IMG/VR virus record: IMGVR_UViG_3300042397_000605 | Location: 1 to 22,212 of that record | Source of the DNA: a virus | DNA: 22,212 bases | Strand: one strand, 5' to 3' | Shown: positions 946 through 21,873 of the stretch, one piece after another | Layout of the letters: each line of letters begins with the position of its first letter | How positions within the stretch are numbered: position 1 is the stretch's first letter | Translations under genes and position numbers: made by a program | Notes under the pieces: model-generated | What the model saw: only the letters and a program-made list of their open reading frames with translations | The model's database searches: none | What the model was told of the DNA's origin: nothing

Positions 946-1656
946 CTAATTATACTTGCTACTGTTGATATGACAAATTTCAATTTCATTTATATTAACA
1001 TGACTTGGTAATGATCCTACCCAGTAAATAGCTTCTGCTAAATCTTCTGCAGTTAATGCATGCTCCCGTTTTTGTTCTTGGGTATCAATAGTTGCTGGAC
1101 AGATTTCTGTAATTTTAATACCAAATTGAGGAAACTCAAGTCTCATTGTATCAATTAAGCCACGTTCACCTCTTTTAGCATTTGTATAATTTCCTCCACC
1201 ACGATATGGGACCTTGCCACCAAAAGAAGTAATAAATATAATAGTTGGAGATTGTGATTTCTCCATACAAGGAACAAATAGTTGAGATAAATACATAGGG
1301 CCAGTAACGTTTATGTCATAGGCTTTTCTAAAATTTTCTGGAGTTTCATTAATAATATGAGTTGGACCTGATCCTCCTCCAGCATTATTAACTAGAAGAT
1401 CTAAAGTAATATCTTTGTATTTTTCAAAGAATATTTCTATTGCTTTAGAGTCTGTTATGTCTAGGTTATATACCTCAACGTTATCAGATATAATCTTAGA
1501 CACTTTTGAAAGATTTCTTGAAACAGCAATAACTTTGTATCCATTTTCAGACAAACGTTTAACTGTTGCTAACCCTACACCCTTGCTTGCTCCAGTTACT
1601 ATAGCTGTTTTAATATTAATGAATCCAATGTTGTGGAACCATAATCTTAAAGCCAC
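946..1656 (-). CDS. Short-chain dehydrogenase/reductase (SDR)
   Basis: This is a classical SDR: an NAD(P)H-dependent oxidoreductase with a Rossmann fold. Visible motifs are the nucleotide-binding TGASKGVG (near residues 21-28 of the long form), NNAGGG, a serine region FITSFGG, and the catalytic YTNAK (YxxxK). The substrate is not predictable. It is the last gene of the oxygenase operon. The start is uncertain: the given GTG start overlaps the upstream gene by 41 bases and has no good ribosome site. The family would be expected to begin near I-K-T-A-I-V-T-G, where only ATT codons (1620-1618 or 1614-1612) are available, right at the upstream stop codon. A rare ATT start with translational coupling is therefore possible. 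The extra 12-14 residues of the long form do not look like SDR sequence. Confidence 0.85.
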   Translation of the reverse strand: MALRLWFHNIGFINIKTAIVTGASKGVGLATVKRLSENGYKVIAVSRNLSKVSKIISDNVEVYNLDITDSKAIEIFFEKYKDITLDLLVNNAGGGSGPTHIINETPENFRKAYDINVTGPMYLSQLFVPCMEKSQSPTIIFITSFGGKVPYRGGGNYTNAKRGERGLIDTMRLEFPQFGIKITEICPATIDTQEQKREHALTAEDLAEAIYWVGSLPSHVNINEIEICHINSSKYN

Positions 1657-2245
1657 TCTTAACTAGGTGTGCTGTATGGTGATATGGAGGTGATGGTGGG
1701 AATACAATGATGCTTCCTGCTTTTGGCTTTATAGCAAATGTATAGTTTAATCCTTTTTCGGCTTCTGCAAAATCTGCTGGAGGTCTTGCCTCTGTTAATA
1801 TTCCTCCTGGAGAAGCAATAGTAAAAGATATTTCCCCACCTTCATAATCATCATTTAGGTACATAACAAAAGAAACTTTTAGTCTTTCGTCTCCCTCTTG
1901 TTGATCAAAGTGTGCTCCCATAAATGTACCAGCTTGATATTTTTTAATTGGATACATTGGAAATAGTTTAGGCTCTTCTGTAATACCTTGGGCTGCTGCA
2001 TAGTCTCTTGCTACATCGTCAAAAGCCTTTTGTAGTGTGGAATAAATATAAGTATTCTTTTCATCTGATGGGTCTGCCTGGGAAATACTTTTATCTGTTC
2101 CATAGACATACTCTTGTCCACTACACGCCATCCATTCGCCCCAAGGATCTTGATTGTCATTCTCAATTGCTTCAACAAGTCTTTTTGGGTCTTCAATTAC
2201 ATTTGTGTAATAGTAAACCTTTTCTTCAAGTATTTCTCTATCCAT
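1616..2245 (-). CDS. 2OG-Fe(II) oxygenase, prolyl-hydroxylase-like (paralogue 1)
   Basis: These enzymes couple decarboxylation of 2-oxoglutarate to hydroxylation of a substrate, often protein side chains in the P4H-like branch. The double-stranded beta-helix core carries the iron triad H112-F-D114 and H190, with K200 exactly ten residues later in the position that binds 2-oxoglutarate. The family-wide block YLNDDYEGGEI is at 130-139. I chose the ATG at 2245 rather than an upstream in-frame ATG because AGGAGG lies 7 bases before it and the longer form would run deep into the upstream gene. The protein is 209 residues. It overlaps or abuts genes on both sides in the operon. The substrate is unknown. 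Confidence 0.9.
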   Translation of the reverse strand: MDREILEEKVYYYTNVIEDPKRLVEAIENDNQDPWGEWMACSGQEYVYGTDKSISQADPSDEKNTYIYSTLQKAFDDVARDYAAAQGITEEPKLFPMYPIKKYQAGTFMGAHFDQQEGDERLKVSFVMYLNDDYEGGEISFTIASPGGILTEARPPADFAEAEKGLNYTFAIKPKAGSIIVFPPSPPYHHTAHLVKSGFKIMVPQHWIH

Positions 2246-2255
2246 TTGGTGCCTC

Positions 2256-2915
2256 CTAGTACCTATTCTTTTGATAGTGATCTTTTTCTTTAATGAATCC
2301 AACAAGAACATATCTTACTGGTCCATCTCCTACATGCTTGACTCCATGTTCATACTTTTCATCGCCTGGAAAAAATAACATAGTTCCTGGTTTAGGCCTT
2401 AACTGGATATCAAGGTTTGGGAAAAATAACTCACCATCTACATAGTCATCATTAATATATACAATTGTAGCATATTTTATAGATGGATCTGTTCTTTGAT
2501 CTGTGTGAGATTTTAATTCTACCCCCGCTTGCATTCTTTGAATTGTTGCAAAACCACTTAAAATTAACTCTGGATCAGATTTTACTACCATTGAGTTTAA
2601 ACCATCATATAATGGTCTGTATATCTCATGGTGTAATATATTAAAATTTTTATCTTTCCAATTTTGAGTAACTTCAAACTTACCTTCAGCAACCAGATTA
2701 TCTACATCATCTCTACCAAATTTTTGCATGCAAAAGTTTTTTAAGTTTGCGTGATATTCTACTTCCCAGTCTTCTTGAGATGTACTATTTATAATATCCC
2801 AAAAAGTATCTATTTGATCTTGTGATAAAAAGTTTTCAACAGAAAATAGTTTTGAGGTAATATCTTCAACTACATAGCCAGCATCTGTCAACTGTTTTTT
2901 TAAGGACTCAATCAT
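2256..2915 (-). CDS. 2OG-Fe(II) oxygenase, prolyl-hydroxylase-like (paralogue 2)
   Basis: A 219-residue enzyme of the same fold. The iron ligands are H137-T-D139 and H190; R201 is the likely 2-oxoglutarate-binding residue, one residue further along than in its neighbours because of a D-G-P insertion. The core block reads YINDDYVDGEL, where a D replaces the usual second-last G of the EGG motif. An N-terminal region of about 110 residues differs from the other paralogues and probably sets substrate choice. It overlaps the upstream gene by 8 bases (ATGATTGA), suggesting translational coupling. Iron and 2-oxoglutarate dependence follows from the family; the target is unknown. Confidence 0.9.
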   Translation of the reverse strand: MIESLKKQLTDAGYVVEDITSKLFSVENFLSQDQIDTFWDIINSTSQEDWEVEYHANLKNFCMQKFGRDDVDNLVAEGKFEVTQNWKDKNFNILHHEIYRPLYDGLNSMVVKSDPELILSGFATIQRMQAGVELKSHTDQRTDPSIKYATIVYINDDYVDGELFFPNLDIQLRPKPGTMLFFPGDEKYEHGVKHVGDGPVRYVLVGFIKEKDHYQKNRY

Positions 2916-3663
2916 TTAGAATATCTTCTACCTTGTACTTATTTCCATTTGCATCCAACTTCCAACCTTGCTTTAAAAGCTCTTGCCACTCTGCTCTTTC
3001 AATTTCTTGATTGGCTCTAGTCTCTTTCATTTCTACAGCCCAGGCATCTCTTAGTTCTTGCGGATAATCTGATTCTTCTCTGTCATCCCAGAAAGATCCG
3101 ATGGTATATCTTACTCCACTTGTAATAAGGGATACTTCGTGCATGTTGTTAAATCCTCCGTCAAATACGGCAAGCATTCCAACCTTTGGTTGAATCTCTA
3201 CGTCTTGTGCTGGAAACTTAAGCAGTCCTCCCTCAAAGTCGTCATTAAGGTATAAAAAGCCTGCATACCTACTTCTCGTAAATGCCCCAGATTTTCCATG
3301 CTCATCTGTATTGTCAGAGTGAATTCTTGCGTATGCTCCTGGCTCCCACTTTTGTGTATGGTATCCAATTTTTGATATTACCTTTGGATCTAAGTCGTGT
3401 ACGGAAGCAATTGCTTCTGGCATCATCTTTTCAATATCTGAAAAAATAGTTGGAGATAGTCCAACGTCAAGAACTTCTTGGTCATTGTCTTGTGGAAGTA
3501 CAGAAGAGTATGACTCATAAAATGAGATAGGCATCCATGATAACTTTCCACCCTCTGCTTGAGCATCAAGTGCTTGAACCATTTTTTGGCACTCTTCATC
3601 AGTAACAAAGTTTTCATAAATAACTATGTCCTTTGTAATTCTTTTTTTATTGTTTAGATTCAT
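2908..3663 (-). CDS. 2OG-Fe(II) oxygenase, prolyl-hydroxylase-like (paralogue 3)
   Basis: This 251-residue paralogue has the iron ligands H115-S-D117 and H175 with R185 ten residues on. The block YLNDDFEGGLLKF (138-150) matches the sister genes. The N-terminus starts with an IVIYENFVTDEEC segment typical of P4H-like oxygenases. A charged, helix-prone C-terminal extension of about 60 residues after the core is not seen in the sisters and is rich in E, K, W and Q. It overlaps the upstream gene by four bases (ATGA). The substrate is unknown; a protein or peptide target would fit the subfamily. Confidence 0.9.
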   Translation of the reverse strand: MNLNNKKRITKDIVIYENFVTDEECQKMVQALDAQAEGGKLSWMPISFYESYSSVLPQDNDQEVLDVGLSPTIFSDIEKMMPEAIASVHDLDPKVISKIGYHTQKWEPGAYARIHSDNTDEHGKSGAFTRSRYAGFLYLNDDFEGGLLKFPAQDVEIQPKVGMLAVFDGGFNNMHEVSLITSGVRYTIGSFWDDREESDYPQELRDAWAVEMKETRANQEIERAEWQELLKQGWKLDANGNKYKVEDILND

Positions 3664-4526
3664 TTTATCCTTCTTTCTTTGTCTGCATTAATTTTATTGG
3701 GATGTTCATCTCTAAACTTTTGCATTATATCTGGCTGCATTGATTCCCAAACATCTTTTCCAAATTCTTTCTCTTTTTCAAACCATTCATCATCTCCAAG
3801 AGAATACTTCATCCAATACATTCTGGATAGGTATTTACTTGTCTTTTTTGCTGGCATAACTCCGTGAATATAGACTGAGCCGTTCTTTGTTAGTATGTCT
3901 GGATGACCTGATGGAAATACTAAAAAGTCTCCTGCTTCTGGCTTATACTTATAGGCTTCTCCATCAACAATAAAGTCAATCTCTCCACCATCATAGTCAT
4001 CATTAAAATACACTAGAGCAGTTATTACAAACTTGTACCCTGGGCTAACAATTGGTTGGCGTATATAGTCAGAATGATATGTCATGGCTATTGGGTCTAC
4101 AATGTCTGTTCTATATCTTGCTATAGATGGTCCAGACCTGTTCCACTCTTTTACCTGTTCTCCATAATGATTTGTTATCTCTTTATCTTGATCAAGATCT
4201 ATATTATTTTTAATAGCGTAGTCTTTTGTTACTGCATAAAAGTTATTAAATAATTCTAGAAGTGCAAGTTTTTGAACTTCCTGTTTATCTGTTTTAGTTT
4301 CTATCTGCTGCAAATACTCTGTGCTAAATCCGTGTGGATGATCTTTAAATGTAGGGTTTAAATACTCTCCAAAGTCAGACCATTTTGTCCACTCATTTAG
4401 CAGTTCGTCTTCGTGACCTGAAGAATTTTTTAACTCGGAGTGCGTCTTTGTTATATCCTTAAACATATTTTTATAAACAAATATTTGTGGATATATTTCT
4501 ATTGGGTTAAGCGCTGGCTCTGTCAT
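3660..4526 (-). CDS. 2OG-Fe(II) oxygenase (paralogue 4)
   Basis: At 288 residues this is the longest oxygenase of the operon. The iron ligands are H151-S-D153 and H221; K231 occupies the 2-oxoglutarate position ten residues later. The block YFNDDYDGGEIDF (173-185) is present. The N-terminal 130 residues are mostly helical-looking and unlike the neighbours. The C-terminal 50 residues (from about 240) are highly charged. The use of Lys in place of Arg at the 2-oxoglutarate site is shared with paralogues 1, 6 and 7, so two subgroups can be told apart within the cluster. It overlaps the upstream gene by four bases (ATGA). Confidence 0.88.
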   Translation of the reverse strand: MTEPALNPIEIYPQIFVYKNMFKDITKTHSELKNSSGHEDELLNEWTKWSDFGEYLNPTFKDHPHGFSTEYLQQIETKTDKQEVQKLALLELFNNFYAVTKDYAIKNNIDLDQDKEITNHYGEQVKEWNRSGPSIARYRTDIVDPIAMTYHSDYIRQPIVSPGYKFVITALVYFNDDYDGGEIDFIVDGEAYKYKPEAGDFLVFPSGHPDILTKNGSVYIHGVMPAKKTSKYLSRMYWMKYSLGDDEWFEKEKEFGKDVWESMQPDIMQKFRDEHPNKINADKERRIK

Positions 4527-5203
4527 GGTTGTCTCTCCCCCGTATGTTTTTTAATCTCCCAAAAAAATGGACATGTAAATCTTATGCCACTCTTAATCTC
4601 AGTAACTCCATGAATATAATTTTTATCCCCTGGGAAAAAGTAAGCAGCACCTTTTTTAGGTTTAAACTGCACACCTTGTAGTGGGAAGTATAGTTCTCCA
4701 CCTTCGTAGTCGTCATTTAAATAAAACAAACTAGAAAGATCATAGTTGGGAAAATCGTTTGGAGTTCCAGCATCTGGGCCTTCATGTAATTCTTTATCTG
4801 CATGAGGTTTTTGAAATTGTCCAGGAAGCCACTTAACAATGGTTGTTCCAGTTGGGTGAACTTCTACTTTATAAAACTCTTCTACAATTGGTTTTAATCT
4901 TTGAAATAGGCCAGCAACTATTGGTGATATTTTAGGATCATTCTTGTCTAAGGTTGGCTGAGTTGCAACTCTATCCTTCCAATAATCTGAATCATAGGTA
5001 ACAGTTCCATTTTCATTTACATGGCTTTCGGTTACATCCCAAATTGTTAAAGATTTGGCAGCTTTTTCTAAAAACTCTATCTCTTCCTGCGTCATAAAGT
5101 TTTCTAGCTCAACAATCATGTCTTTGCTATCCCCAAACCACCCAGATGGAGTTATAGACGGTGTTCTTTTAACTACTGTATATGAGTCTTTATTTTGTTC
5201 CAT
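4523..5203 (-). CDS. 2OG-Fe(II) oxygenase, prolyl-hydroxylase-like (paralogue 5)
   Basis: A 226-residue enzyme and the most typical P4H-like member here: H134-A-D136 and H198 bind iron, and R208 ten residues on binds 2-oxoglutarate. YLNDDYEGGELYF (161-173) is the shared core block. Between the first and second strands it carries an acidic, proline-containing loop (139-155). The start ATG at 5203 is only six bases from a TGA-TATAAT box embedded in the end of the upstream gene, so besides operon read-through it may have its own leaderless transcript. There is no strong Shine-Dalgarno. The substrate is unknown. Confidence 0.92.
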   Translation of the reverse strand: MEQNKDSYTVVKRTPSITPSGWFGDSKDMIVELENFMTQEEIEFLEKAAKSLTIWDVTESHVNENGTVTYDSDYWKDRVATQPTLDKNDPKISPIVAGLFQRLKPIVEEFYKVEVHPTGTTIVKWLPGQFQKPHADKELHEGPDAGTPNDFPNYDLSSLFYLNDDYEGGELYFPLQGVQFKPKKGAAYFFPGDKNYIHGVTEIKSGIRFTCPFFWEIKKHTGERQP

Positions 5204-5205
5204 AT

Positions 5206-5922
5206 TTATATTATATCACCCTTCGTATTGTCTGTTACGCTTAGTTTTAATGTTTTTACCTCATGTGAACCTTGAGATTCTTTGTTTTCATTTACCGCAT
5301 CTCTATACCAGTCTGTCCATTTCCCAGTTTTATTTATTTCTTGTGCAGCATTTCCATAGGACATATTGGCTTCTAATCTTGTTCTATCATTGTCTTGGTA
5401 TTTAACAATTTCAATATTTGTACCGTTTAAATTTGACAAAGATATAGGAATTATTGTAGCAACTGGGGTTCCAGCTTTGATAACCACTCTTTTGTTTGCT
5501 ACTTTTGCTTTAATAGCTAAAGGCAGAGGATTGTCATAAAAAGATGTGCTCATTAATGATGACATTGTTTCAAACTCATTGCTAAAATAATTTACTGGAT
5601 TAATAGTAAAAATACTTACATCTTTGTCTGTTCTAAAAACTAAACCCGTATTTAAACTTATAGAAGATTGACCTCTTCCAGAATATGCTCCCGATGGGCT
5701 GAATATTTCAACACGATCTGGAGTTTGATCATTAACTCCATCCCAAATAAACTCAATATCTTCTACACAAGAAAGACTCCAGCCAATTACGTTTGATTGG
5801 GTTACTGGAAAACATCTATAAGCATGGCCTTCTGATGTTACATCCATCCAGTCTCTTTTAATTGACATGGGCTGAATATCAAACAAAGCCCCCTGTGTTT
5901 TTTCAACTGAGATATTAAACAT
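5206..5922 (-). CDS. Protein of unknown function, DUF6065-like (paralogue A)
   Basis: I do not recognise a reaction for this 238-residue protein. It looks like a DUF6065-type family known mainly from viral and marine sequences (family name from memory). Visible features are YRCFPVTQSNVIGW (35-48), a beta-rich middle with LNTGLVFRTDKDV, and GTPVATIIPI (151-160). These align with the second copy at 6589-7359 (STGYVFKTPCDL and GTPYLQVLPF), so the two are paralogues. The all-beta pattern would fit a cupin-like fold, but no metal-binding motif is clear. It sits between two oxygenase genes, overlapping the upstream gene in TAATG, so it may act with the oxygenases. Confidence 0.75.
   Translation of the reverse strand: MFNISVEKTQGALFDIQPMSIKRDWMDVTSEGHAYRCFPVTQSNVIGWSLSCVEDIEFIWDGVNDQTPDRVEIFSPSGAYSGRGQSSISLNTGLVFRTDKDVSIFTINPVNYFSNEFETMSSLMSTSFYDNPLPLAIKAKVANKRVVIKAGTPVATIIPISLSNLNGTNIEIVKYQDNDRTRLEANMSYGNAAQEINKTGKWTDWYRDAVNENKESQGSHEVKTLKLSVTDNTKGDII
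5210..5218 (-). promoter_or_regulatory. Possible internal extended -10 (TGATATAAT)
   Basis: TGA-TATAAT lies inside the last codons of the upstream gene, and six bases separate it from the ATG at 5203. That distance would put +1 on the start codon, giving a leaderless mRNA. Because it overlaps coding sequence, chance is harder to exclude than for the intergenic boxes. Confidence 0.4.
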
Positions 5923-6578
5923 TAGTCTGCCTCTGCACTATACATTTCTGGAGTGTGAAACTTTTTACTGTAATCAAGCATTGTTACAATAGAATATTTA
6001 GTTCCAGAAGTTACTGGCATGGCTTGATGTGGATACATAAAGTTTGATGGGAAAATAAACAAATCCCCAGCCTCTGCTTTGACTTTTAGGTTCTGTAGTC
6101 TAAAGAAAAGTTCTCCGCCCTCATAGTCATCATTAACATATGAAACTAAAGAAACAGTACAATTATAAGAAAACCCATGATCGTGATGTTCCATAAAGTG
6201 TTGACCTTGACCATATTTAATAAAATTAAAAGCTTCCCAATATTTCAAATTATGAATATTGTACATTCTGCAATAATCTTCTACTGCTGGTAATTTTACA
6301 TCATAAAGATCTTGCCAAAGTGATTGAAGGTTTAGACTGACTTGACTTTTATCATTTTCAATATCTGTTTTCTTAAACTTAAAATCATTACAATCTCTAT
6401 AGTCTGGCATTAGTTGTTTGTATCCTACATACGCAGGTTGCCAGCTGTACCCAGTGGTATCTCCTTCTGGCTTAAGATTATCTTCAAGTCTTTTTATTAC
6501 ATCAATTTCTTTTTTAATTACACCCTTGTAACAAAAGATTCCATTACCAAGGTCTATTTTTTCTGTCCATGTTTCCAT
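5922..6578 (-). CDS. 2OG-Fe(II) oxygenase (paralogue 6)
   Basis: A 218-residue oxygenase closest to paralogue 7. Both share YxEAFNFxKY, a H-F-x-x-H-x-D-H-G iron site and YNCTVS. The iron ligands are H131-H-D133 and H184, with K194 ten residues on as the 2-oxoglutarate residue. The core block is YVNDDYEGGELFF. The ATG at 6578 is chosen over an earlier in-frame ATG (6638) because AAGGAG lies 7 bases upstream and the longer version would overlap the neighbouring gene by 50 bases. The two similar genes, 6 and 7, flank a DUF6065-like gene, which suggests duplication of an oxygenase-DUF6065 pair. Confidence 0.9.
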   Translation of the reverse strand: METWTEKIDLGNGIFCYKGVIKKEIDVIKRLEDNLKPEGDTTGYSWQPAYVGYKQLMPDYRDCNDFKFKKTDIENDKSQVSLNLQSLWQDLYDVKLPAVEDYCRMYNIHNLKYWEAFNFIKYGQGQHFMEHHDHGFSYNCTVSLVSYVNDDYEGGELFFRLQNLKVKAEAGDLFIFPSNFMYPHQAMPVTSGTKYSIVTMLDYSKKFHTPEMYSAEAD

Positions 6579-6588
6579 TCTATTCTCC

Positions 6589-7359
6589 TTATTTGTATTC
6601 TCTTCTTGACCAAACTTTATTTTTATATACTCCGCCATCAGGCTGTCTATAAAACTTCATGTTGTTAAACATTTTATCATAAATCTCAGCCTGTCCTAAT
6701 ATCTCTACTTCACTTTTCCAGTTTTCTCTTTTAAATGGTAAGACTTGTAGGTATGGAGTGCCTGCTAGAATTGTTCCTTCCCAACCTTCTGCAATAAAGA
6801 ATGGAAAGCTTCCAAGCAAATGAACCTTATCTGAGTCAACAATTCCTGTTGTGTTTAAAAATGGCAGATCAAATCTATTCATTGGTGTCATAAACAAAGC
6901 ACTATATCCTTCTGGTAACTCTAGCCCCCAATCAGAAGACCAAGCAAAATGGTGCTCATAGAATCCTTTTGGATGCTCAAACTGTGGCATCGGTGGTCTT
7001 TGAGTACAGAAATCTTGATATCTACTATCTTCAATCTTTACACCAATAACTCCTTGTACGTTTTTAGAAAATATTAAATCGCAAGGAGTTTTAAAAACAT
7101 ATCCAGTTGAAAATGCATCCATGATTGCAGGACATGCTTTCCATGTAGGAATTTTTCCATAGTCATCTACTGTACCGTCTTTTGGAAAAGGGCAAGTTTC
7201 TTTTGGTGCATTATAATATTCATTGTTCATTGGATTTTTTGCAAATCTGTCTGCATCCTTATACCATTGAGGAATAACATTCTGTGTTGGTGCTGGAACA
7301 GAAACACTATCCTTATTTAGCCAAGGCCTAAAAGATCTAAAGATTGCCAACTTATTCAT
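6589..7359 (-). CDS. Protein of unknown function, DUF6065-like (paralogue B)
   Basis: A 256-residue protein of unknown role, paralogous to 5206-5922. It has a W-rich N-terminus (FRPWLNKD), CPAIMDAFSTGYVFKTPCD (76-94), PMNRFDLPF (159-167), FFIAEGWEGTILAGTPYLQV (187-206) and a YRQPDGGVYK tail. The pattern resembles proteins annotated DUF6065 in viruses. I take the ATG at 7359, which overlaps the upstream stop codon in TAATG; an earlier in-frame ATG at 7401 would overlap the upstream coding sequence by 43 bases. It follows oxygenase 7 directly, mirroring the order oxygenase 6 then DUF6065-like A. A shared substrate or complex with the oxygenases is only an inference. Confidence 0.78.
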   Translation of the reverse strand: MNKLAIFRSFRPWLNKDSVSVPAPTQNVIPQWYKDADRFAKNPMNNEYYNAPKETCPFPKDGTVDDYGKIPTWKACPAIMDAFSTGYVFKTPCDLIFSKNVQGVIGVKIEDSRYQDFCTQRPPMPQFEHPKGFYEHHFAWSSDWGLELPEGYSALFMTPMNRFDLPFLNTTGIVDSDKVHLLGSFPFFIAEGWEGTILAGTPYLQVLPFKRENWKSEVEILGQAEIYDKMFNNMKFYRQPDGGVYKNKVWSRREYK

Positions 7360-8069
7360 TAATGGCTCAGCTCGTTTATGTCTGTCATAATAACAACACA
7401 ATATTTTGTTCCTGTTTTCATTGGCAAAGAAGCATGTTCATAAATATAGTTTGAAGGGAATATAGCTATATCTCCAACTTTTGGAGTATGAACAAAATTA
7501 TCTAATCTTGGAAACTTAATCTCTCCGCCTTCATAATCATCATTAATATAGATAACAGCAGAGACTGTACAATTATAAGCAGGGCCATGATCAGCATGAA
7601 TATTAAAGTGAGTTCCTTCACCCTCATACTTTACAAAGTTAAATGCTTCGTAATATGTAACATTAATTCCCCAATAATGAGCATAGTCGTCTACACACAT
7701 TTTTAGCTTTTGGTAAATCTCTTCATGAAGATCAATTAAGTCTTGATTAGATTCATCTCTTGGCCCAAGATTTTCTTGCTTATATTTAAAGTCTACACAA
7801 TCTCTTGCTTTTTTAATTGGGGCATCAGAGTTTGTAACTTTAGCTTCTGACCACTTATATTTTTTATCTCCTGAAAGATTGTGCTCAAGCGTATTAATAT
7901 ATCTTTCTGAATCATCTTTAGAAAAAACATTATGATAAATGTTTAGTCCTAATCCTGGATTACTAATAGAAATATTGATTTGAGGCATTAATCTTTCAAC
8001 TCTACCTGAAACTGTTTCAGACCTGTCTTTTGTAAACCAATGATTTTCATTTTCATCATAAATATCCAT
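7359..8069 (-). CDS. 2OG-Fe(II) oxygenase (paralogue 7), first gene of the operon
   Basis: A 236-residue oxygenase opening the ten-gene operon. The iron triad is H158-A-D160 and H212, and K222, ten residues later, is the 2-oxoglutarate residue. The core block is YINDDYEGGEIKF. The region YEAFNFVKYEGEGTHF (140-155) closely matches paralogue 6. A leader of about 23 bases carries a GATGGGG ribosome site, and an extended -10 (TGC-TATAAT) lies at 8099-8107, so transcription of the cluster is expected to start here. No signal peptide is visible, so the enzyme should act in the cytoplasm of the infected cell. The substrate is unknown. Confidence 0.92.
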   Translation of the reverse strand: MDIYDENENHWFTKDRSETVSGRVERLMPQINISISNPGLGLNIYHNVFSKDDSERYINTLEHNLSGDKKYKWSEAKVTNSDAPIKKARDCVDFKYKQENLGPRDESNQDLIDLHEEIYQKLKMCVDDYAHYWGINVTYYEAFNFVKYEGEGTHFNIHADHGPAYNCTVSAVIYINDDYEGGEIKFPRLDNFVHTPKVGDIAIFPSNYIYEHASLPMKTGTKYCVVIMTDINELSH

Positions 8070-8141: not shown

Positions 8142-8402
8142 CTACCACTTATCTAAAGGACAAGTAGCGCTAAGAAGTTTAGTTTTAGCTGCCATAAAAC
8201 AACCACATTTTTTACATTGTTTAGTTAACTTAATTAACTCTGGGCATGATTTACAAATATCATACCTTTTATTTGATAAAGATTCATCTGCTCTTTCAGC
8301 ATTAGGATTAATCATATCCCAAGGTTTTACAGTTTTAGATAGGTGTTCAACCATATCTTTGTTTTTTTCTTTATATATTTCCCAAGGAGTTTTTTCAGAC
8401 AT
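8142..8402 (-). CDS. Small zinc-ribbon-like protein, DUF6171 type (copy 1)
   Basis: An 86-residue protein with six cysteines in two knuckles (C50-x2-C53 and C63-x2-C66-x-C68) and a last C81 before the terminal PLDKW. The segment CKKCGCFMAAKTKLL is typical of the DUF6171 family seen in phages (family name from memory). Zinc binding is expected from the cysteine pattern; the function is unknown. The start ATG at 8402 is two bases past the stop of the upstream gene; an earlier in-frame start would overlap it by 37 bases. A second copy at 21679-21873 shares the last 40 residues closely, and it too lies next to a 2OG oxygenase gene. Confidence 0.82.
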   Translation of the reverse strand: MSEKTPWEIYKEKNKDMVEHLSKTVKPWDMINPNAERADESLSNKRYDICKSCPELIKLTKQCKKCGCFMAAKTKLLSATCPLDKW

Positions 8403-8404
8403 GT

Positions 8405-8737
8405 TTAATCTTGAGAGAAGACAGAATCTTGGTATTTCCAACCCATTCTAACTTCTAATCCTTCTGGAACTTCTACTGCCAAAAGATTGCTTTTTAAAAC
8501 AGAATAAGTAGCTTCATCTGATAAAATTGGCAAAACTATGCCTTCTGTGCTAGTTAATTCAATTTTAAACTTACCTAAAGGTAAGTCTGGGTAGTCTTGT
8601 GTATTATCTACAAAAGTGTATCCTTGAGCAAGAATTTCTGGCAAAGGTGGTACAGAATGTAATACATATTCTACAATGCCATCAGAAATAAAAGCTATTA
8701 CTTTACCCTTTTTTACAAGTCCTTCAGTTATTAACAT
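8405..8737 (-). CDS. Unknown small protein
   Basis: I do not recognise this 110-residue protein. It starts MLITEGLVKKGKVIAFIS, then GIVEYVLHSVPPLPEILAQG, with a mixed alpha/beta appearance, no signal peptide, no membrane segment and no cysteines. It is the first gene of a two-gene unit with the zinc-ribbon protein downstream. A GGAG ribosome site lies about 6 bases before the ATG, and an extended -10-like box (TGA-TATAGT) is at 8767-8775. Short proteins like this sit among tail genes in phages, but nothing in the sequence fixes a structural role. Confidence 0.75.
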   Translation of the reverse strand: MLITEGLVKKGKVIAFISDGIVEYVLHSVPPLPEILAQGYTFVDNTQDYPDLPLGKFKIELTSTEGIVLPILSDEATYSVLKSNLLAVEVPEGLEVRMGWKYQDSVFSQD

Positions 8738-8797: not shown

Positions 8798-9757
8798 TTA
8801 ACAGAAATTATTGCCACCGCAAGCATAACCTGTTATTCCAAAACAAGAAAAGAAATCACATGAGCCTGCTCCTCCACAGCATGGGGCACCACCTGCGTCG
8901 GCTCCACAATAGTTACCAGCTGTTGAACAACTTGAGAAGCTTGGGAAGAATGGTGGGAAGAATGGTGGGAAGAACGGTGGGAAGAACGGGAAGAAAGGTG
9001 GGAAGAACGGGAAGAAAGGTGGGAAGAATGGAGGGAAGAATGGTGGGAAGAACGGGAAGAATGGTGGGAAAAACGGTGGGAAGAACGGGAAGAAAGGAAA
9101 AAACGGTGGGAAGAAAGGTGGGAAGAACGGAAAGAATGGGGGAAAGAAAGGAGGAAAGAATGGAGATAATGTAGTAACTGATCCAGACGCAGCAGAAGCA
9201 ACGCTTGTACCATTAGCATTAGTTGCTGTGACTGTATAAGTTTGAGCTGTTCCAGCGGTATCATTAATAAGAATTGGAGAAGTAGCACCTGTTCCAGAAG
9301 TACCGTCAGATCCTGTTACAGTAAACCCAGTAATTGCGCTACCACCAGTTGCGGGGGCTGAGAAGGCAATAGAGTTTTGATTAACACCAGCAGTAGGTGT
9401 TGGGGCAGACATGGTTGCAGGAACTGTTGTAGCTGTAATTGAACTTGAAGCAGATGAGGCTGCAGATGTTCCAGCAGCATTAGTCGCTGTTGCAGTAAAC
9501 GTGTAGGCCGTGTTAGATTGCAAACCTGTGACTGTAATTGGAGAAGATGACCCAGTTCCAGTATATCCGCCAGGAGACGAGGTTACAGTAAATGATGTAG
9601 CAGCAGGGGATAGCGCAGGCAAAGAAAATGTAACTGTGGCTGCGCCATTGTTAAACGCTCTGCCTGTTCCTACGTTTGTTGCAGTTACGCTTGTTGGCGC
9701 TAATGGCTCTAAAAAGTCATTTGATGCAGATGAACGTTTACCCGTCTTCTTAGCCAT
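8798..9757 (-). CDS. FN3-FN3-(Pro-Phe-Phe-Pro) rod-cysteine-knot-like protein, putative tail adhesin
   Basis: This 319-residue protein has four parts. After a basic N-terminus (MAKKTGKRSS) come two fibronectin type III-like beta domains (about 20-111 and 112-196) with the usual NTAYTFTATATN and AQTYTVTATN strands. Residues 199-272 are an almost pure run of P-F-F-P and P-P-F-F units. The C-terminal 43 residues hold eight cysteines (277, 284, 293, 294, 300, 305, 313, 319), with the first six spaced C-x6-C-x8-CC-x5-C-x4-C. FN3 domains on phage tails often bind carbohydrate. The position directly after a tail-fibre gene (14-base gap) suggests a virion surface protein. The Pro-Phe run is strongly hydrophobic without being a normal membrane helix. 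No signal peptide is seen. A second, smaller protein of this type is at 16582-17265. Confidence 0.85.
   Translation of the reverse strand: MAKKTGKRSSASNDFLEPLAPTSVTATNVGTGRAFNNGAATVTFSLPALSPAATSFTVTSSPGGYTGTGSSSPITVTGLQSNTAYTFTATATNAAGTSAASSASSSITATTVPATMSAPTPTAGVNQNSIAFSAPATGGSAITGFTVTGSDGTSGTGATSPILINDTAGTAQTYTVTATNANGTSVASAASGSVTTLSPFFPPFFPPFFPFFPPFFPPFFPFFPFFPPFFPPFFPFFPPFFPPFFPPFFPFFPPFFPFFPPFFPPFFPPFFPSFSSCSTAGNYCGADAGGAPCCGGAGSCDFFSCFGITGYACGGNNFC
8942..9163 (-). repeat. Tandem Pro-Phe-Phe-Pro coding repeat
   Basis: Short tandem units of 9 and 12 bases, such as CCACCATTCTTC on the coding strand, encode F-F-P and P-P-F-F. The plus strand is a purine-rich ladder of GGGAAGAA blocks. The unit lengths vary, as expected if copy number changes by slippage or recombination. 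Confidence 0.9.
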
Positions 9758-9771
9758 TTATATTCCCCTTA

Positions 9772-11844
9772 TTACGCTGTTAGATCGCCGTAAACAACCC
9801 AAGTGTTTGTTGCTCTCTTGAAAAGAGTTGCAGTTGACCATTGTGTTCTTAGTTTTAATCCTGGTGTTGAGTTTACTGTTACTCCAGCATCTCCTGCAAT
9901 TGTTACCTGACCTGTTGAGGTTTGAAGGACATCAATTGAGGTTCCAACTGGAAAGGCTACTGCTGAGTTTAGTGGAATTGTAATTGTTGCTGCAGATCCT
10001 TTTGCAACTTCAATTAGTGAATCTCTTTCAGTTAATGCTGACAGTGTATAAGAGTCTGTCTTTTGAATAATTGGTGTACGAGAAGGAGTTCCTTCTTTTG
10101 TCTGTGTGCCATCAGTAAATATAAATCCACCAGCAGTTGAGCTAATAACTGCAGTTCCATTTACCTTTAGGTCTTTTCCTGAAGCAAGGTTGATGTGCTC
10201 TGAAGAAGTCCAAGAATCTGTTGCATCTACCCAGTTAAAGGTTTTATCAGTTGCGCCCTTAAGTGTAATTCCGCCACCGTCTGCAGTGGTATCAGTAGGG
10301 GTTCCTGTGTCTCCAAGAACAATATTTTTGTCTTCAATAACAAGGTTAGTTGAGTTAAGGTTTGTTGTAGTTCCGTTAACTGTTAAGTTTCCAGAAAGAG
10401 TAAGGTCTGCTGCGTTTACTGTCCCTGTAAATGTAGGATTTGCAAGATTTGCCTTTAGGTCAAGTGCTGTTTGAGCAGCAGTTGATACTGGCTTGTTAGC
10501 ATCTGTTGTGTTATCAACATTTGCAAGGCCAACATCAGATTTAGTAATTCCAGTAGGTGTGTTAATTACTGGTGATGTAAGAGTTTTATTTGTAAGTGTT
10601 TCAGTCTTAGAAGCAGTTGATTTATCATCTAGCTGTGTTTGAATGCTTGAAGTAACACCATCAAGATATCCAATTTCAACATCTGATACGTTAGCAACAG
10701 TTGCTTGCTTGCCATTTATTTGTGTTTGAATAGCTGAAGTAACGCCATCTAGGTATCCAATTTCAGTATCTGAAACATTAGCGACTACTGCTTGCTTATT
10801 ATTTAACTGTGTTTGAATAGATGAAGTTACACCGTCTACATAGTTAAGTTCAGTTACAGATAGAAGCGCACCGTCAAGAATGTTTAATTCTGCAGCGGTA
10901 GACGTAAGTCCAGCTAAAGTATTAATTTCAGCTGAAGTTGCAGTAACTCCAGCAAGCTTATTTAACTCTGCTGTGGTAGCTGTAACACCATCAAGAATGT
11001 TTAATTCTGTTGCAGATGAAGTCAAAGATGCAAGAACATTTATTTGTGCTGCTGTTGCTGTAACACCATCAAGAATATTTAGCTCAGCTGTAGATGAAGT
11101 AATCCCATCAAGAACATTTAGCTCTGTGGCTGTTGCTGATAAAATAACATCTTCGTTAATTTTTGGAGATGTTAAAGTTTTATTAGTAAGGGTTTCTGAT
11201 CCAGCAAGTGAAGCAACATCGGCATCAGATACCGCTGTATTTAATTGAGCAAGAGTAGTGTTTAATGTATTTGAAGTTAAATTAATTGTCTTATTAGATA
11301 GTGTTTGAGTAGCATCAAGTAAGGCAACTGTTCCAGTAGCATCTGGAAATGTTATGTCTCTGTCTGCTGTTGGATCTACAACCTTAAGACTTGTCTCAAA
11401 TCCATTTGCTGTAGCGCCTTCAAACTTAACTTCAGTTTGAACTTCAAGAACTGTACTATTAATAATAGTGGTTGTTCCTGATACTGTTAAGTCTCCTGAT
11501 ACTGTTACGTTACCGCTGGCATCGGCAAGAACTACTGTTCCTGTAGCATCTGGCAAAGTAATAGTGCGATCATCTGTTGGATCAGTTACCGAAACCGTAG
11601 TTTCAAAATTATTTGCAGTTGCACCTTCAAATGTAATGCTTGAACCAAATGATGGATTTGCTGTTGAATTAGCATCAATAAAGTAGTCAAGGTTTAGCCA
11701 GTGATTTGTACCATCACCAATTTTAAATTTGTTTGTATCGGTTTCGTACCCGATTTCTCCTGCGTTTAGGATAGGACCGTTGCCACTGTTAGTAGAGATC
11801 CACTGTGCTGCAGTACCCCTACGCTGTTGCATTCTTGTTGCCAT
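9772..11844 (-). CDS. Phage tail fibre protein, repeat-rich (690 residues)
   Basis: The N-terminus (MATRMQQRRGTAAQW, then GEIGYETDTNKFKIGDGTNH at 29-48) matches the fibre attachment domain seen on many phage tail fibres and Mtd-like proteins. Two copies of an F-E-G-A-T-A module end in PDATGTV (about 72-105 and 140-174). Eight consecutive 13-residue repeats of the type TAELNILDGVTAT cover 239-342, followed by longer IQTQLNNKQ...EIGYLDGVTSS repeats; such repeats form elongated trimers. A module at about 483-566 (LTVNGTTT to ASGKD) is shared with the fibre at 12378-14159. The last 90 residues, ending TWVVYGDLTA, match the C-terminus of the protein at 17265-18038 and are probably the receptor-binding tip. 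The ATG at 11844 has a GGGAGG ribosome site and its own promoter. Confidence 0.9.
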   Translation of the reverse strand: MATRMQQRRGTAAQWISTNSGNGPILNAGEIGYETDTNKFKIGDGTNHWLNLDYFIDANSTANPSFGSSITFEGATANNFETTVSVTDPTDDRTITLPDATGTVVLADASGNVTVSGDLTVSGTTTIINSTVLEVQTEVKFEGATANGFETSLKVVDPTADRDITFPDATGTVALLDATQTLSNKTINLTSNTLNTTLAQLNTAVSDADVASLAGSETLTNKTLTSPKINEDVILSATATELNVLDGITSSTAELNILDGVTATAAQINVLASLTSSATELNILDGVTATTAELNKLAGVTATSAEINTLAGLTSTAAELNILDGALLSVTELNYVDGVTSSIQTQLNNKQAVVANVSDTEIGYLDGVTSAIQTQINGKQATVANVSDVEIGYLDGVTSSIQTQLDDKSTASKTETLTNKTLTSPVINTPTGITKSDVGLANVDNTTDANKPVSTAAQTALDLKANLANPTFTGTVNAADLTLSGNLTVNGTTTNLNSTNLVIEDKNIVLGDTGTPTDTTADGGGITLKGATDKTFNWVDATDSWTSSEHINLASGKDLKVNGTAVISSTAGGFIFTDGTQTKEGTPSRTPIIQKTDSYTLSALTERDSLIEVAKGSAATITIPLNSAVAFPVGTSIDVLQTSTGQVTIAGDAGVTVNSTPGLKLRTQWSTATLFKRATNTWVVYGDLTA
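10819..11130 (-). repeat. Eight tandem 13-residue (39-base) repeats in the tail fibre gene
   Basis: These repeats encode residues 239-342 with the consensus x-A-E-L-N-x-L-D-G-V-T-x-x. They are diverged at DNA level, so they are old. They give a regular beta or coiled shaft in trimeric fibres of other phages. Confidence 0.85.
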
Positions 11845-16581: not shown

Positions 16582-17265
16582 TTAGGGGGCAGCTGGCGTT
16601 GTAAAGGTTATTTGAGCAGATGCACTAACTCCAGTCTGGCTTGATCCTGTGTAAACAGTTACTGTAACGGTATATTGTGTTAACTGAGTTCCACCAGTCA
16701 TTGTTCTTGATGTAGCAGTATTTCCAGTTGCTCCATTAAGATTTGAGCTAGGTGAAGTTGTAATCATGTATGAAGCCTGAAGAGTAGAATCCCAACTTAA
16801 GAATCCTCCATTGTATGCTTCAACAATTGAAAGATTAGTAATTGTTGGAGAAGGTGGGAAGTATGGTGGGAAGAACGGGAAGAATGGTGGGAAGAATGGC
16901 GGGAAGAATGGCGGGAAGAATGGCGGGAAGAATGGCGGGAAGAATGGTCCTGGAGCTACTGGAGTAAATGAATTACTAGCAGTAGAACTTAGAGAATCTT
17001 GAACGGTATTATTTAGTTTAACAACTGCGGTATAAGAAGTACCATTAGCTAAACCAGAAATAGTAATTGGAGATGTAGAACTAGTTCCTGTAATTGAATT
17101 TGGAGTTGTTGTTGCAGTATAAAGTAAAGAAGTATTAGGTTTTCCAGTATTTGCTGGAGCAGTAAAAGCTACGGATACACTAGCATTGCCAGCAGTTGCA
17201 GCTCCAATAGTTGGAGTTCCTGGCTGGCGATTATCTGAAGAACCCGTTACTCCTGGAATTGGCAT
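16582..17265 (-). CDS. FN3-(Pro-Phe-Phe-Pro) rod-FN3 protein
   Basis: A 227-residue protein related in layout to 8798-9757. An FN3-like domain (about 15-104) precedes an uninterrupted P-P-F-F run (107-138), and a second FN3-like domain (about 139-225) follows. Here the rod links two folded domains, while in the larger protein it leads to a cysteine-rich tail. The ATG at 17265 overlaps the upstream stop in TAATG; an earlier in-frame ATG at 17295 would lie inside the upstream gene. It is translated with the fibre-like gene before it. FN3 domains and fibre context suggest a surface adhesin or spacer. No cysteine-rich domain is present. Confidence 0.83.
   Translation of the reverse strand: MPIPGVTGSSDNRQPGTPTIGAATAGNASVSVAFTAPANTGKPNTSLLYTATTTPNSITGTSSTSPITISGLANGTSYTAVVKLNNTVQDSLSSTASNSFTPVAPGPFFPPFFPPFFPPFFPPFFPPFFPFFPPYFPPSPTITNLSIVEAYNGGFLSWDSTLQASYMITTSPSSNLNGATGNTATSRTMTGGTQLTQYTVTVTVYTGSSQTGVSASAQITFTTPAAP
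16852..16947 (-). repeat. Tandem Pro-Pro-Phe-Phe coding repeat, second locus
   Basis: 12-base units (GGGAAGAATGGC or GGGAAGAATGGT on the plus strand) include several exact consecutive copies. They are the same orientation and unit as the repeat at 8942-9163, so the two could recombine. Confidence 0.9.
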
Positions 17266-18038
17266 TATGCAATCAAGTCTCCTGCAAGTACCCAAGTATC
17301 TGTATTTAGCTTTATTAATGTTGCCATTGATCCAGCTGCACGTATTTTTGCTCCTGGGGTTGCATATGAAGTAATTCCAACAGTGAAAGCAACTGTAACT
17401 CCTGTTGTAAGTGCAATTAAGTGTATTTGAGTTCCAATAGGATAAGCAACAGTTGCGTTAAGTGGAACGGTAAAGGCATAAGCACCATTCATTTGAACAA
17501 GAGTGCTAGCATCAGATAAAACAAATGTGTATGCTCCAGTTTTAGCAGTTGTATTTACATTAAATGGTTGAAAATTTAAAAGACTTGTTCCATTACCAAC
17601 TTGAATTTGCTTGTTTGTAGTATCCCAGGCAATTTTTGCATCTGTTGTAGAGGATGTTGTAGTTATAGTAGTTGCTGCAGCAGGAGTAGACCATGATAAT
17701 CCAGAAGCAGTTGCGCTGTCTGCAGTTAAGATTGTTCCATTTGCTCCAACAGTGACTACAGATAAAACGTCATTTGCAGAAGCTGAAAGCAAATCTCCTT
17801 TTGCGTTAAAGCTTGAGGCTGAAAGAGATCCTCCTCCTTCAATAGCATCAATTCGTACGTCTAGGCTATTAAGTGTATATGCAATTGATGGGCTAACTAA
17901 GTTTGCTGTATTTGTTTCAGCTGTATTAAAACTTTCAGACCCATAATGATATGTTCTAAGAGCAACCTGAATATCAGCTGCGTCTCCAAGACTTGGAATT
18001 CTTGTTGGTACTAAAGTACCTATGCTTTCACTTGCCAT
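17265..18038 (-). CDS. Tail fibre-like protein
   Basis: A 257-residue protein whose N-terminus (TRIPSLGDAADIQVALRTYH, 12-31) and middle (FNAKGDLLSASANDVLSVVT) are common phage fibre elements. The last 90 residues, ending in ATPGAKIRAAGSMATLIKLN then TWVLAGDLIA, are homologous to the C-terminus of the 690-residue fibre (TWVVYGDLTA), so both probably share a receptor-binding or trimerising tip. The ATG at 18038 has a GAGAGGTG ribosome site. It heads a two-gene unit with the FN3/Pro-Phe gene, matching the order fibre then FN3/Pro-Phe protein at 11844-8798. Confidence 0.85.
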   Translation of the reverse strand: MASESIGTLVPTRIPSLGDAADIQVALRTYHYGSESFNTAETNTANLVSPSIAYTLNSLDVRIDAIEGGGSLSASSFNAKGDLLSASANDVLSVVTVGANGTILTADSATASGLSWSTPAAATTITTTSSTTDAKIAWDTTNKQIQVGNGTSLLNFQPFNVNTTAKTGAYTFVLSDASTLVQMNGAYAFTVPLNATVAYPIGTQIHLIALTTGVTVAFTVGITSYATPGAKIRAAGSMATLIKLNTDTWVLAGDLIA

Positions 18039-19058: not shown

Positions 19059-19799
<741 letters not shown>

Positions 19800-20565: not shown

Positions 20566-21243
20566 TTAGTAAATAGGTAAATTAGATTCTTTTACAAATT
20601 CTGAATAACTAGTCAATTTACCATTGTATACAATTTTATAGTCTATGTCAAACTTATCTTTATAGTCTTTTGAATGACTAAAATAGTTATCTATATAGCA
20701 TACACCATATTCATTTTTTATAGCATTTTTAGAAAAACAACCATAAACTGGAAATCCAGGTATAGTGCTCGGGAGTCTGCTCCCACTTGCTAATATTTTT
20801 TCACATTCTTCTATAATGTCATCTAAAATTGATTTCATGGTTTTACTATTTTTTGTAGCAGCAAAGTTTGAGTTATTTATAGACTCAGAATTTGTTTGAA
20901 ATCCTTTTGAGCTGGATATCATATCTTCATTTTTATAGTATTGGGATATAGCATTATTTAGCGGAAACGTACAAATAGAATCCATATCCGCATAAAATCC
21001 ACCATGTGTATAAGTTACTACCATTCTCCACATGTCTGCTCTATTTATTCCGCTGGATATTTGATATACTTTATATAACGTATCGTTATAATCTTTTACG
21101 TCTTGCTCTCTTTGTTTGGAGTCAGCATATCTATGCTCCCAGTCTGGATTTAAGTTTTTCCAAGTTCCTATTATATTTTTCTGAAATGGCAATAGGTTTT
21201 CAAACTCAGATTCTTGGGTCTGCCAAATTATTTTGGGGATCAT
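20566..21243 (-). CDS. GT32-type glycosyltransferase (Gly_transf_sug, DXD motif)
   Basis: A 225-residue protein with the family's opening IPKIIWQT (2-9), NPDWEHRYAD, and the core NRADMWRMVVTYTHGGFYAD (67-86) followed by MDSIC. The DXD motif D86-M-D88 binds the metal and nucleotide sugar. Members such as OCH1-like and toxin-type enzymes transfer a sugar from a nucleotide-sugar donor to glycans or proteins. The length fits a compact catalytic domain; no signal or membrane segment is seen, so it acts in the cytoplasm. It lies five bases after the holin-like gene. Possible acceptors are virion fibres or host surface precursors. Confidence 0.88.
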   Translation of the reverse strand: MIPKIIWQTQESEFENLLPFQKNIIGTWKNLNPDWEHRYADSKQREQDVKDYNDTLYKVYQISSGINRADMWRMVVTYTHGGFYADMDSICTFPLNNAISQYYKNEDMISSSKGFQTNSESINNSNFAATKNSKTMKSILDDIIEECEKILASGSRLPSTIPGFPVYGCFSKNAIKNEYGVCYIDNYFSHSKDYKDKFDIDYKIVYNGKLTSYSEFVKESNLPIY

Positions 21244-21678: not shown

Positions 21679-21873
21679 ATGGATGATGTAACCCCTTTTG
21701 ACTTAATTAATGGTTCGCCAAGAGTTGAAAAAGATATAAAAGAAACTCGACTAGATATTTGCAAAACTTGTGATTGGTTTAGACCAAAGACTCAAACTTG
21801 CAAAAAATGTGGATGTTTTATGGCTGCTAAATCTATGTTGTTAAATGCTAAATGTCCGATTGGTAAGTGGTAA
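21679..21873 (+). CDS. Small zinc-ribbon-like protein, DUF6171 type (copy 2)
   Basis: A 64-residue protein with cysteines at 28, 31, 41, 44, 46 and 59. The block LDICKTCDWF, then CKKCGCFMAAKSMLL and CPIGKW, is nearly the same as in the copy at 8142-8402 (YDICKSCPEL, CKKCGCFMAAKTKLL, CPLDKW). The N-terminus is shorter and unlike the first copy. The start ATG is the first base position expected for a leaderless message. A 2OG oxygenase gene follows with a one-base gap, so the pair is co-transcribed. The function is unknown; zinc binding is expected from the cysteine pattern. Confidence 0.82.
   Translation: MDDVTPFDLINGSPRVEKDIKETRLDICKTCDWFRPKTQTCKKCGCFMAAKSMLLNAKCPIGKW

Follow-up and report, generated by a model that had tools for sequence, protein, structure and literature searches.

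The subject of this analysis is a repeat of phenylalanine and proline residues (the PFFP array) encoded in a virus record of 22,212 bases, IMG/VR record IMGVR_UViG_3300042397_000605, the whole of which was analysed and is hereafter called the window. The PFFP array is genuine and widespread, and we propose, with a probability of roughly 0.6, that it is the interchangeable stalk of a modular virion fibre (adhesin) protein. A constant N-terminal part, consisting of two fn3 domains here and of a PASTA-like part in relatives, would presumably dock on the fibre encoded by the gene immediately upstream, and the array would keep a variable C-terminal tip, which may bind the host, away from the particle. 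The stalk chains would be extended, in a conformation resembling the polyproline II (PPII) helix, which has three residues per turn, and probably trimeric, with the second Phe of each unit packed inward and the variable first aromatic residue (F, Y, H or W) facing outward. Hydroxylation of the stalk prolines by neighbouring prolyl-4-hydroxylase-like enzymes may then stiffen and solubilise the stalk, which would make it extensin-like in function.

The original prediction, made from the window sequence, described residues 199-272 of a 319-residue protein as almost only Phe and Pro; this array (8942-9163, minus strand) indeed consists of 40 Phe and 34 Pro, with no other residue, in units of 3 and 4 residues. 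The claimed recurrence at 16852-16947 was also found (15 F, 16 P and 1 Y), and the domain order of the second gene differs as was stated, being fn3, array and about 89 residues without a Pfam match, against two fn3 domains, array and Cys-rich tip in the first. The open reading frame (ORF) of the second gene was listed as 16582-17295 on the minus strand from a doubtful TTG start, and an ATG overlapping the stop of the gene upstream (TAATG) gives a protein of 227 residues. A 23-base core coding for PFFPPFFP occurs 18 times in the window, against 0 in 100 dinucleotide-preserving shuffles. Codons are mixed within the arrays (CCA, CCG, CCT and CCC for Pro, TTC and TTT for Phe), so the first array is not a recent perfect DNA repeat. 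One further IMG/VR record (L281, counted once with L025, which is the same contig) contains the whole 960-base gene (8798-9757) without a single difference, and the copy in L284 has 8 differences in 960 bases, part of them in the array. A base-level assembly error, named in the original prediction as what would overturn it, is therefore unlikely.

We looked for the exact DNA pattern of three PFFP units, and found it in at least 120 IMG/VR viral stretches. The same pattern was present in 8 stretches of a 257 Gb species-genome collection, all titled MAG (metagenome-assembled genome), five of which yielded an ORF under the array rule. In total, 216 loci gave 182 distinct array ORFs. The repeat unit is P-[F/Y/H/W]-F-P, of which the second Phe is near-invariant: of 689 units not covered by the search seeds, 669 had Phe as second residue, and the 20 exceptions (VA, TA, TT or SL) probably represent array-edge units. 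The first residue of the 669 units was F in 425, Y in 197, H in 18, S in 17, W in 7 and another residue in 5. The array length varies widely, between 13 and 140 residues. From one unit to the next, synonymous differences outnumber non-synonymous ones (1981 versus 278), a ratio inflated by the recognition of arrays by their residues.

The gene order around the array is conserved. For 150 of the 182 distinct ORFs, at least 250 nt of upstream sequence was available, the other 32 lying too near a contig end; in 121 of the 150, the array gene is preceded by a tail-fibre-like gene ending in GDxx, with a gap of at most 71 nt in 114 of the 121 and at most 230 nt in all. In the reverse test, the last 110 residues of the upstream gene were used as the query, and among the best 80 of 585 matches the array was found in the next ORF in 57 and about 1.2 kb further on in 3, and was absent in 20. 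In L354 and L355 the array lies about 1.2 kb beyond the fibre gene, and in L350 (oriented, from 6331 on) a low-complexity frame of Pro, Ala, Ser, Val and Thr, Cys-rich at its end and without a start ATG, stands between the fibre and PFFP genes. One of the 20 array-less loci (L312) is cut by the contig end before the stalk, and the middle parts of 13 others were read; these 13 carry the same kind of N-terminal part, joined to a stalk of (SPFxVFGF)n, (AFG)n or a mixture, mostly followed by a Hint-like domain. Likewise, the nine PASTA-type relatives without PFFP that were read carry a (PPxFFx)n stalk, again with the "...FK" end (for the loci see Table 1). In L082, a single ORF joins the upstream-type domain and the array.

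The tips were compared in the 47 fn3-PFFP proteins, the window's own gene (L121) among them, whose tips are 20 residues or longer, with identity taken over the shorter sequence. Of the 202 pairs with N-terminal parts at least 80% identical, 164 had tips less than 40% identical, and just 3 had tips that also reached 80%. Since tips diverge behind conserved N-terminal parts, the two parts evolve separately across the stalk, and the variable tips resemble receptor-binding tips, a function that we predict for them.

The fn3 assignment of the 319-residue protein is based on PF00041 (E 1.2e-7; a single stretch at residues 38-104, with 32.2 bits against a cut-off of 25), on an AlphaFold model with a predicted local distance difference test (pLDDT) score mostly above 90 in the fn3 region, and on Foldseek, for which the best match was a titin fn3 tandem (E 5.1e-10). 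The second array protein reached 24.3 bits for fn3, just short of the cut-off. Neither window array protein matched any PHROGs v4 family at E 0.01.

The C-termini of the 182 ORFs were sorted by simple text rules into "...FK" (56), Cys-rich (39), other (33), other short (23), contig-cut (15), Hint-like (8) and S74-like (8) ends, with some of the "other" class also looking Hint-like and two of the eight S74-like ends being S74-start remnants only. A Hint/intein-like domain follows the array in L030, L040, L082 and L083 (Pfam below cut-off) and in L109 (by sequence), and could cleave or activate the stalk end. S74 domains assist the formation of trimeric fibres and then cut themselves off. An S74-like C-terminus was recognized by eye in six distinct PASTA-type array ORFs, and in both relatives tested (L225 and L252) S74 (PF13884) scored above the cut-off, with its start immediately behind "...FK"; it is at this border that other array proteins end in a bare "...FK". 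The position of the S74 chaperone directly after "...FK" supports a trimeric shaft for this S74-bearing branch only, the window proteins being without S74. The rod or spacer, possibly trimeric, that had been suggested for the array fits the gene order, the constant N-terminal part with variable tip, the S74 of some relatives and the other repeat types that occupy the array's position, and no support was found for the membrane binding suggested with it.

In the PASTA-like branch, the frame of the array is entered by an apparent +1 frameshift. The name is our reading of the alignment: PASTA (PF03793) was detected in L032 (24.3 bits against a cut-off of 23.2), and gave no match at E 0.05 in L065, L225 and L252. 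For 14 PASTA-like array ORFs (13 loci), no ATG is present near the start and the N-terminus lies in another frame. The pattern GCN GCN CGG A occurs in 118 viral stretches, and of 120 matches in the loci the array followed in the +1 frame in 94 and in frame 0 in none; the same pattern without the C was found in 33 stretches, 8 of them with an array, all in frame. When loci were chosen by the downstream peptide only (66 loci, 2 of which were too near an end), 43 were frame-broken with an array, 1 was frame-broken without, 5 were intact with an array and 15 intact without; the frame break thus tracks the PFFP stalk, being present in 43 of 48 loci with an array versus 1 of 16 without, with a small bias from the query, which began with three post-shift residues, and with some frame-broken loci lacking an ATG in the upstream frame as well. 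In 22 distinct frame-broken sequences the extra base was always C (22 of 22), and the next codon was GGA in 20 and GGG in 2. Upstream of the site, codon differences were synonymous in 49 cases and non-synonymous in 19 when read in frame 0, and 5 versus 52 in +1; downstream, they were 129 versus 57 in +1 and 3 versus 169 in frame 0. These figures refer to the peptide-chosen loci. Among 60,363 codons in 203 ORFs from 28 loci, CGG was the rarest sense codon, with 25 occurrences, and a second CGG A position exists in the same domain family (L020, L063 and L066, with L015 and L065 as intact relatives). As the constrained frame switches at one base, the arrays of the frame-broken relatives are very probably translated. 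No such site was seen in the array genes of the window, of which the fn3 domains lie in the frame of the array. As a separate observation made once only, the frame of the PFFP ORF of L107 may be broken by one base within an fn3 repeat, which could be an error, a mutation or another shift site.

The first array gene is followed, about 0.7 kb downstream, by a cluster with seven genes for 2-oxoglutarate-Fe(II) (2OG-Fe(II)) oxygenases, all of which match PF13640 above the cut-off. The HxD motif is present in all seven, and a distal His and a Lys/Arg are visible by eye, in agreement with the prolyl 4-hydroxylase (P4H)-like family. Two of the seven products were compared with the PDB: for that of 7359-8069, the closest chains were prolyl 4-hydroxylases (E 2.5e-5), followed by procollagen lysyl hydroxylase LH3, and that of 2256-2915 matched the same prolyl 4-hydroxylases weakly (E 0.015). 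Using a profile made from the seven oxygenases, we searched 6 kb downstream in those of the 80 reverse-test loci (63) where the room was 5 kb or more. All of the 47 array loci carried at least two hydroxylase-like genes, against 0 of 16 non-PFFP loci, seven of the latter having one such gene and nine none. Counts of PF13640 in 35 whole records (mostly of at least 20 kb, a hand-picked part of the long records among the 80, plus the window) gave at least one match in 20 of 21 array-positive records and two or more in 18, against 9 and 3 of 14 array-negative records; in the PASTA-type records (27 of 66 picked), at least one was present in 26 of 27 regardless of the stalk. Among 116 distinct upstream-domain sequences, those followed by a Pro-stalk (PFFP or PPxFFx, n=102) had two or more hydroxylase-like genes in 91, one in 2 and none in 9, against 1, 5 and 8, respectively, for other stalks (n=14), though many of the loci counted for hydroxylases are near-duplicates. 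Collagen-like proteins are the textbook substrate of prolyl hydroxylases. Of the 21 array-positive records, 9 had collagen-like genes, as had 9 of the 14 array-negative ones; since these genes do not track the array, they do not explain the cluster.

Several results weigh against the stalk proposal or its hydroxylation step. The array was modelled by AlphaFold, as a monomer, with a pLDDT of about 56-67 and no regular secondary structure, and the model of an S74-type relative was too poor to use (mean pLDDT 41); with respect to stalk conformation we take these models as neither for nor against. S74 (PF13884) was absent from both window array proteins by Pfam, and no cultured phage with array proteins or the PASTA-like part was found in INPHARED, a negative weakened by the low-complexity filter of BLAST. 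With respect to the hydroxylases, the tree contains 6 changes of stalk type, giving 2 independent pairs on starred branches (6 if all branches, including weak ones, are used), and the hydroxylases follow in about one of the two, the test being underpowered. In the first locus sets, 95 array loci with downstream room had two or more hydroxylase-like genes in 75, one in 6 and none in 14, and the 46 array-less loci of at least 6 kb had none in 37, one in 2 and two or more in 7, of which L249 and L250 are contigs with the PPxFFx stalk. For the 29 array loci in which no GDxx gene was found, the counts within 6.5 kb were two or more in 11, one in 6 and none in 12, with some of the flanks short. With so few independent changes, shared ancestry can explain the link between hydroxylases and stalk, which is an association and not a proof.

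This bears on an alternative to the modification step only, in which the oxygenases act on the host surface, another virion protein or a small molecule, and their adjacency is the inherited order of one phage group. We give it close to an even chance, because the stalk type changes only a few times independently on the tree, the cluster is often absent at array loci without the GDxx gene and present at 7 of 46 array-less loci, and a count made for the oxygenases only gave 127 phage records with similar enzymes, most of them from marine cyanophages. Against it stand the loci with Phe/Gly stalks, which have the same upstream fibre domain and N-terminal part and none or one such gene nearby, and the failure of collagen-like genes to track the cluster. 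That the neighbouring enzymes hydroxylate the stalk prolines, for which co-occurrence makes the array a candidate substrate, we consider possible, at odds somewhat below even. Still more tentative is the joint reading of all these features as a hydroxyproline-rich, glycine-free Phe-Pro fibre stalk that would be modified, in the course of infection, by a phage prolyl hydroxylase cluster and, in the PASTA branch, gated by a programmed +1 frameshift at C/GGA.

Two alternatives to a stalk function of the array are both unlikely. In the first, the array would serve host entry as a hydrophobic element, active on membranes or prone to aggregate, and not as a spacer; the pure Phe and Pro composition of the first window array speaks for it. 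A proline at every third or fourth residue is incompatible with a transmembrane helix, in agreement with the original prediction, and such a helix was rejected on this ground; moreover, the array sits between folded domains and variable tips, and is replaced in relatives by Gly/Phe or PPxFFx repeats. In the second, equally improbable, the array is mainly a slippage-prone hinge at the DNA level, which promotes tip-swapping recombination and has little role as protein. The swapped tips behind conserved N-terminal parts and the very variable array length agree with such a hinge, while the mostly synonymous differences between units (with the inflation noted above), the near-invariant second Phe and the reading frame preserved across the frameshift site of relatives argue against it. 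An assembly artefact or an unexpressed ORF has virtually no probability left, as no point in its support was found and the data already contradict it through the identical gene in another record, the frame shared by fn3 domain and array, the at least 120 contig stretches with the repeat and the frame switch kept before the array in relatives.

The proposed stalk shares features with several known systems. Like the collagen-like tail fibres of phages (PF01391), it is a Pro-rich, low-complexity shaft in a predicted structural protein, for which a PPII-type chain and a trimer are plausible; unlike these, it has no Gly-X-Y and is made of F and P only, and collagen-like genes are no commoner in array records. 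PF01391 gave no match in the products of 8798-9757 or 16582-17295, and the window arrays are without Gly; collagen identity was ruled out by the absent match and by collagen-like genes not tracking the array. The S74 (PF13884) trimeric tail fibres and spikes resemble the six PASTA-type array ORFs in their S74-like C-terminus, confirmed by Pfam in the two tested, in contrast to the window proteins without S74 and to most relatives, which end in "...FK", a Cys-rich tip, a Hint-like domain or otherwise. Hoc of T4 is a phage protein with Ig-like domains. Ig-like domains of phage proteins are often added by frameshifting (PMC5009743); the window protein is similar in having Ig/fn3-type domains on a predicted structural protein, with relatives that appear to use +1 frameshifting, and differs in that fn3 forms the N-terminal part carrying stalk and tip, beside a fibre-like gene, and that the shift precedes a PASTA-like and not an Ig domain. 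The same paper describes +1 frameshifting at UGG_A and CGG_A in glass sponge mitochondria, where GGA is preceded by an inserted base and the codon concerned is very rare. In the phage relatives too, the extra base stands immediately before GGA and the codon is extremely rare, with the difference that the site is found in fibre-type genes of relatives only and not in the window, and that the extra base is C in all 22 sequences. A viral prolyl 4-hydroxylase and hydroxyproline-rich proteins are known from PBCV-1 (Eriksson et al. 1999, as cited in PMC9301287). Here too, P4H-like enzymes are encoded by a virus, in this case adjoining the gene of a proline-rich protein; unlike in PBCV-1, several oxygenase genes are clustered, the repeat contains Phe, and hydroxylation is predicted from the genes alone. 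In the portions consulted of open-licence PMC papers, no PFFP stalk, virion hydroxyproline in phage or frameshifted phage PASTA gene was found.

The features discussed are listed in Table 1. In the window, the first array gene begins 14 bases after the 690-residue fibre-like gene, of which the C-terminal domain reads "...TPGLKLRTQWSTATLFKRATNTWVVYGDLTA", and a 257-residue gene, of which residues about 142-255 resemble minor tail proteins of Gordonia phages, has its stop codon overlapped by the second array gene; two Gordonia phages that have an upstream gene of similar kind were looked at, and unrelated small proteins come next there. Other genes of the window encode a DUF6065 protein within the oxygenase cluster (5206-5922, minus strand; E 7.7e-25), a collagen-like protein (19059-19796, minus strand; PF01391, E 5.6e-9), a DXD glycosyltransferase that could modify virion or host glycans (20566-21243, minus strand; PF04488, E 4.1e-12), and two small proteins that contain Cys and resemble each other in a C-terminal motif (8142-8441, minus strand, matching DUF6171, and 21679-21873, plus strand). 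Identity as a T4-like phage or cyanophage was rejected, weakly, as gp23 (PF07068) and psbA (PF00124) were both found in 0 of 30 records chosen for length from 62, with the gp23 control positive nowhere.

Table 1. Positions of the array genes, their parts and neighbours in the window, and loci of relatives with related features
Feature	Position or loci	Strand	Basis or remark
PFFP stalk, residues 199-272	8942-9163	-	40 F + 34 P
Second, shorter PFFP array	16852-16947	-	15 F, 16 P, 1 Y
319-aa fn3-fn3-PFFP-Cys-rich protein	8798-9757	-	ORF, fn3 PF00041, AlphaFold, Foldseek
Two tandem fn3 domains, residues about 21-198	9164-9697	-	Pfam (first domain only), AlphaFold, Foldseek
Cys-rich C-terminal tip, residues 273-319	8801-8941	-	Sequence; pLDDT under 50; tips vary among relatives
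Second fn3-PFFP protein, 227 aa from ATG overlapping upstream stop	16582-17265	-	ORF; fn3 at 24.3 bits against a cut-off of 25
Fibre-like protein of 690 aa with Mtd_N start and "...TPGLKLR...GDLTA" domain at the C-terminus	9772-11844	-	PF18454 E 7.4e-12; tail-protein PHROGs
257-aa gene, same kind of C-terminus (...AGDLIA), before second array gene	17265-18038	-	ORF, sequence
Cluster holding seven 2OG-Fe(II) oxygenases	1616-8069	-	PF13640 above cut-off in all seven
Oxygenase genes	1616-2311, 2256-2915, 2908-3663, 3660-4526, 4523-5203, 5922-6638, 7359-8069	-	PF13640; HxD in 7/7
Putative +1 site C/GGA before array	L091, L101, L111, L225, L230 and others; e.g. L091:3019-3040		PASTA-like PFFP genes
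(SPFxVFGF)n or (AFG)n Phe-rich stalks in homologous fn3 proteins	L324, L330-L332, L334, L336, L337, L340, L343, L349, L353, L357, L359		
Intact-frame PASTA-like relatives with (PPxFFx)n	L402, L407, L409, L411, L413, L415, L417, L421, L422		

The distribution of the repeat, its tie to the hydroxylases and the frameshift site of relatives are beyond the reach of reading the window sequence alone. In a survey of Baltic Sea viruses, prolyl 4-hydroxylase was among the abundant auxiliary genes, and its viral use "remains cryptic" (PMC9301287); a proline-rich stalk encoded beside P4H-like genes makes this question directly testable. The C/GGA site would be a phage +1 frameshift signal that hides true gene starts from simple ORF calling, and the layout of constant part, stalk and variable tip indicates where to look for candidate receptor-binding parts in uncultured phages. 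We regard the PFFP stalk as a variant of the phage fibre shaft, and credibly as more than that should hydroxylation be found. A repeat of F and P only is a candidate new fibrous material, and the joint reading, if true, would mean that the stalk has a fibrous-protein fold other than that of collagen and that it is the substrate so far missing for many phage "P4H" genes.
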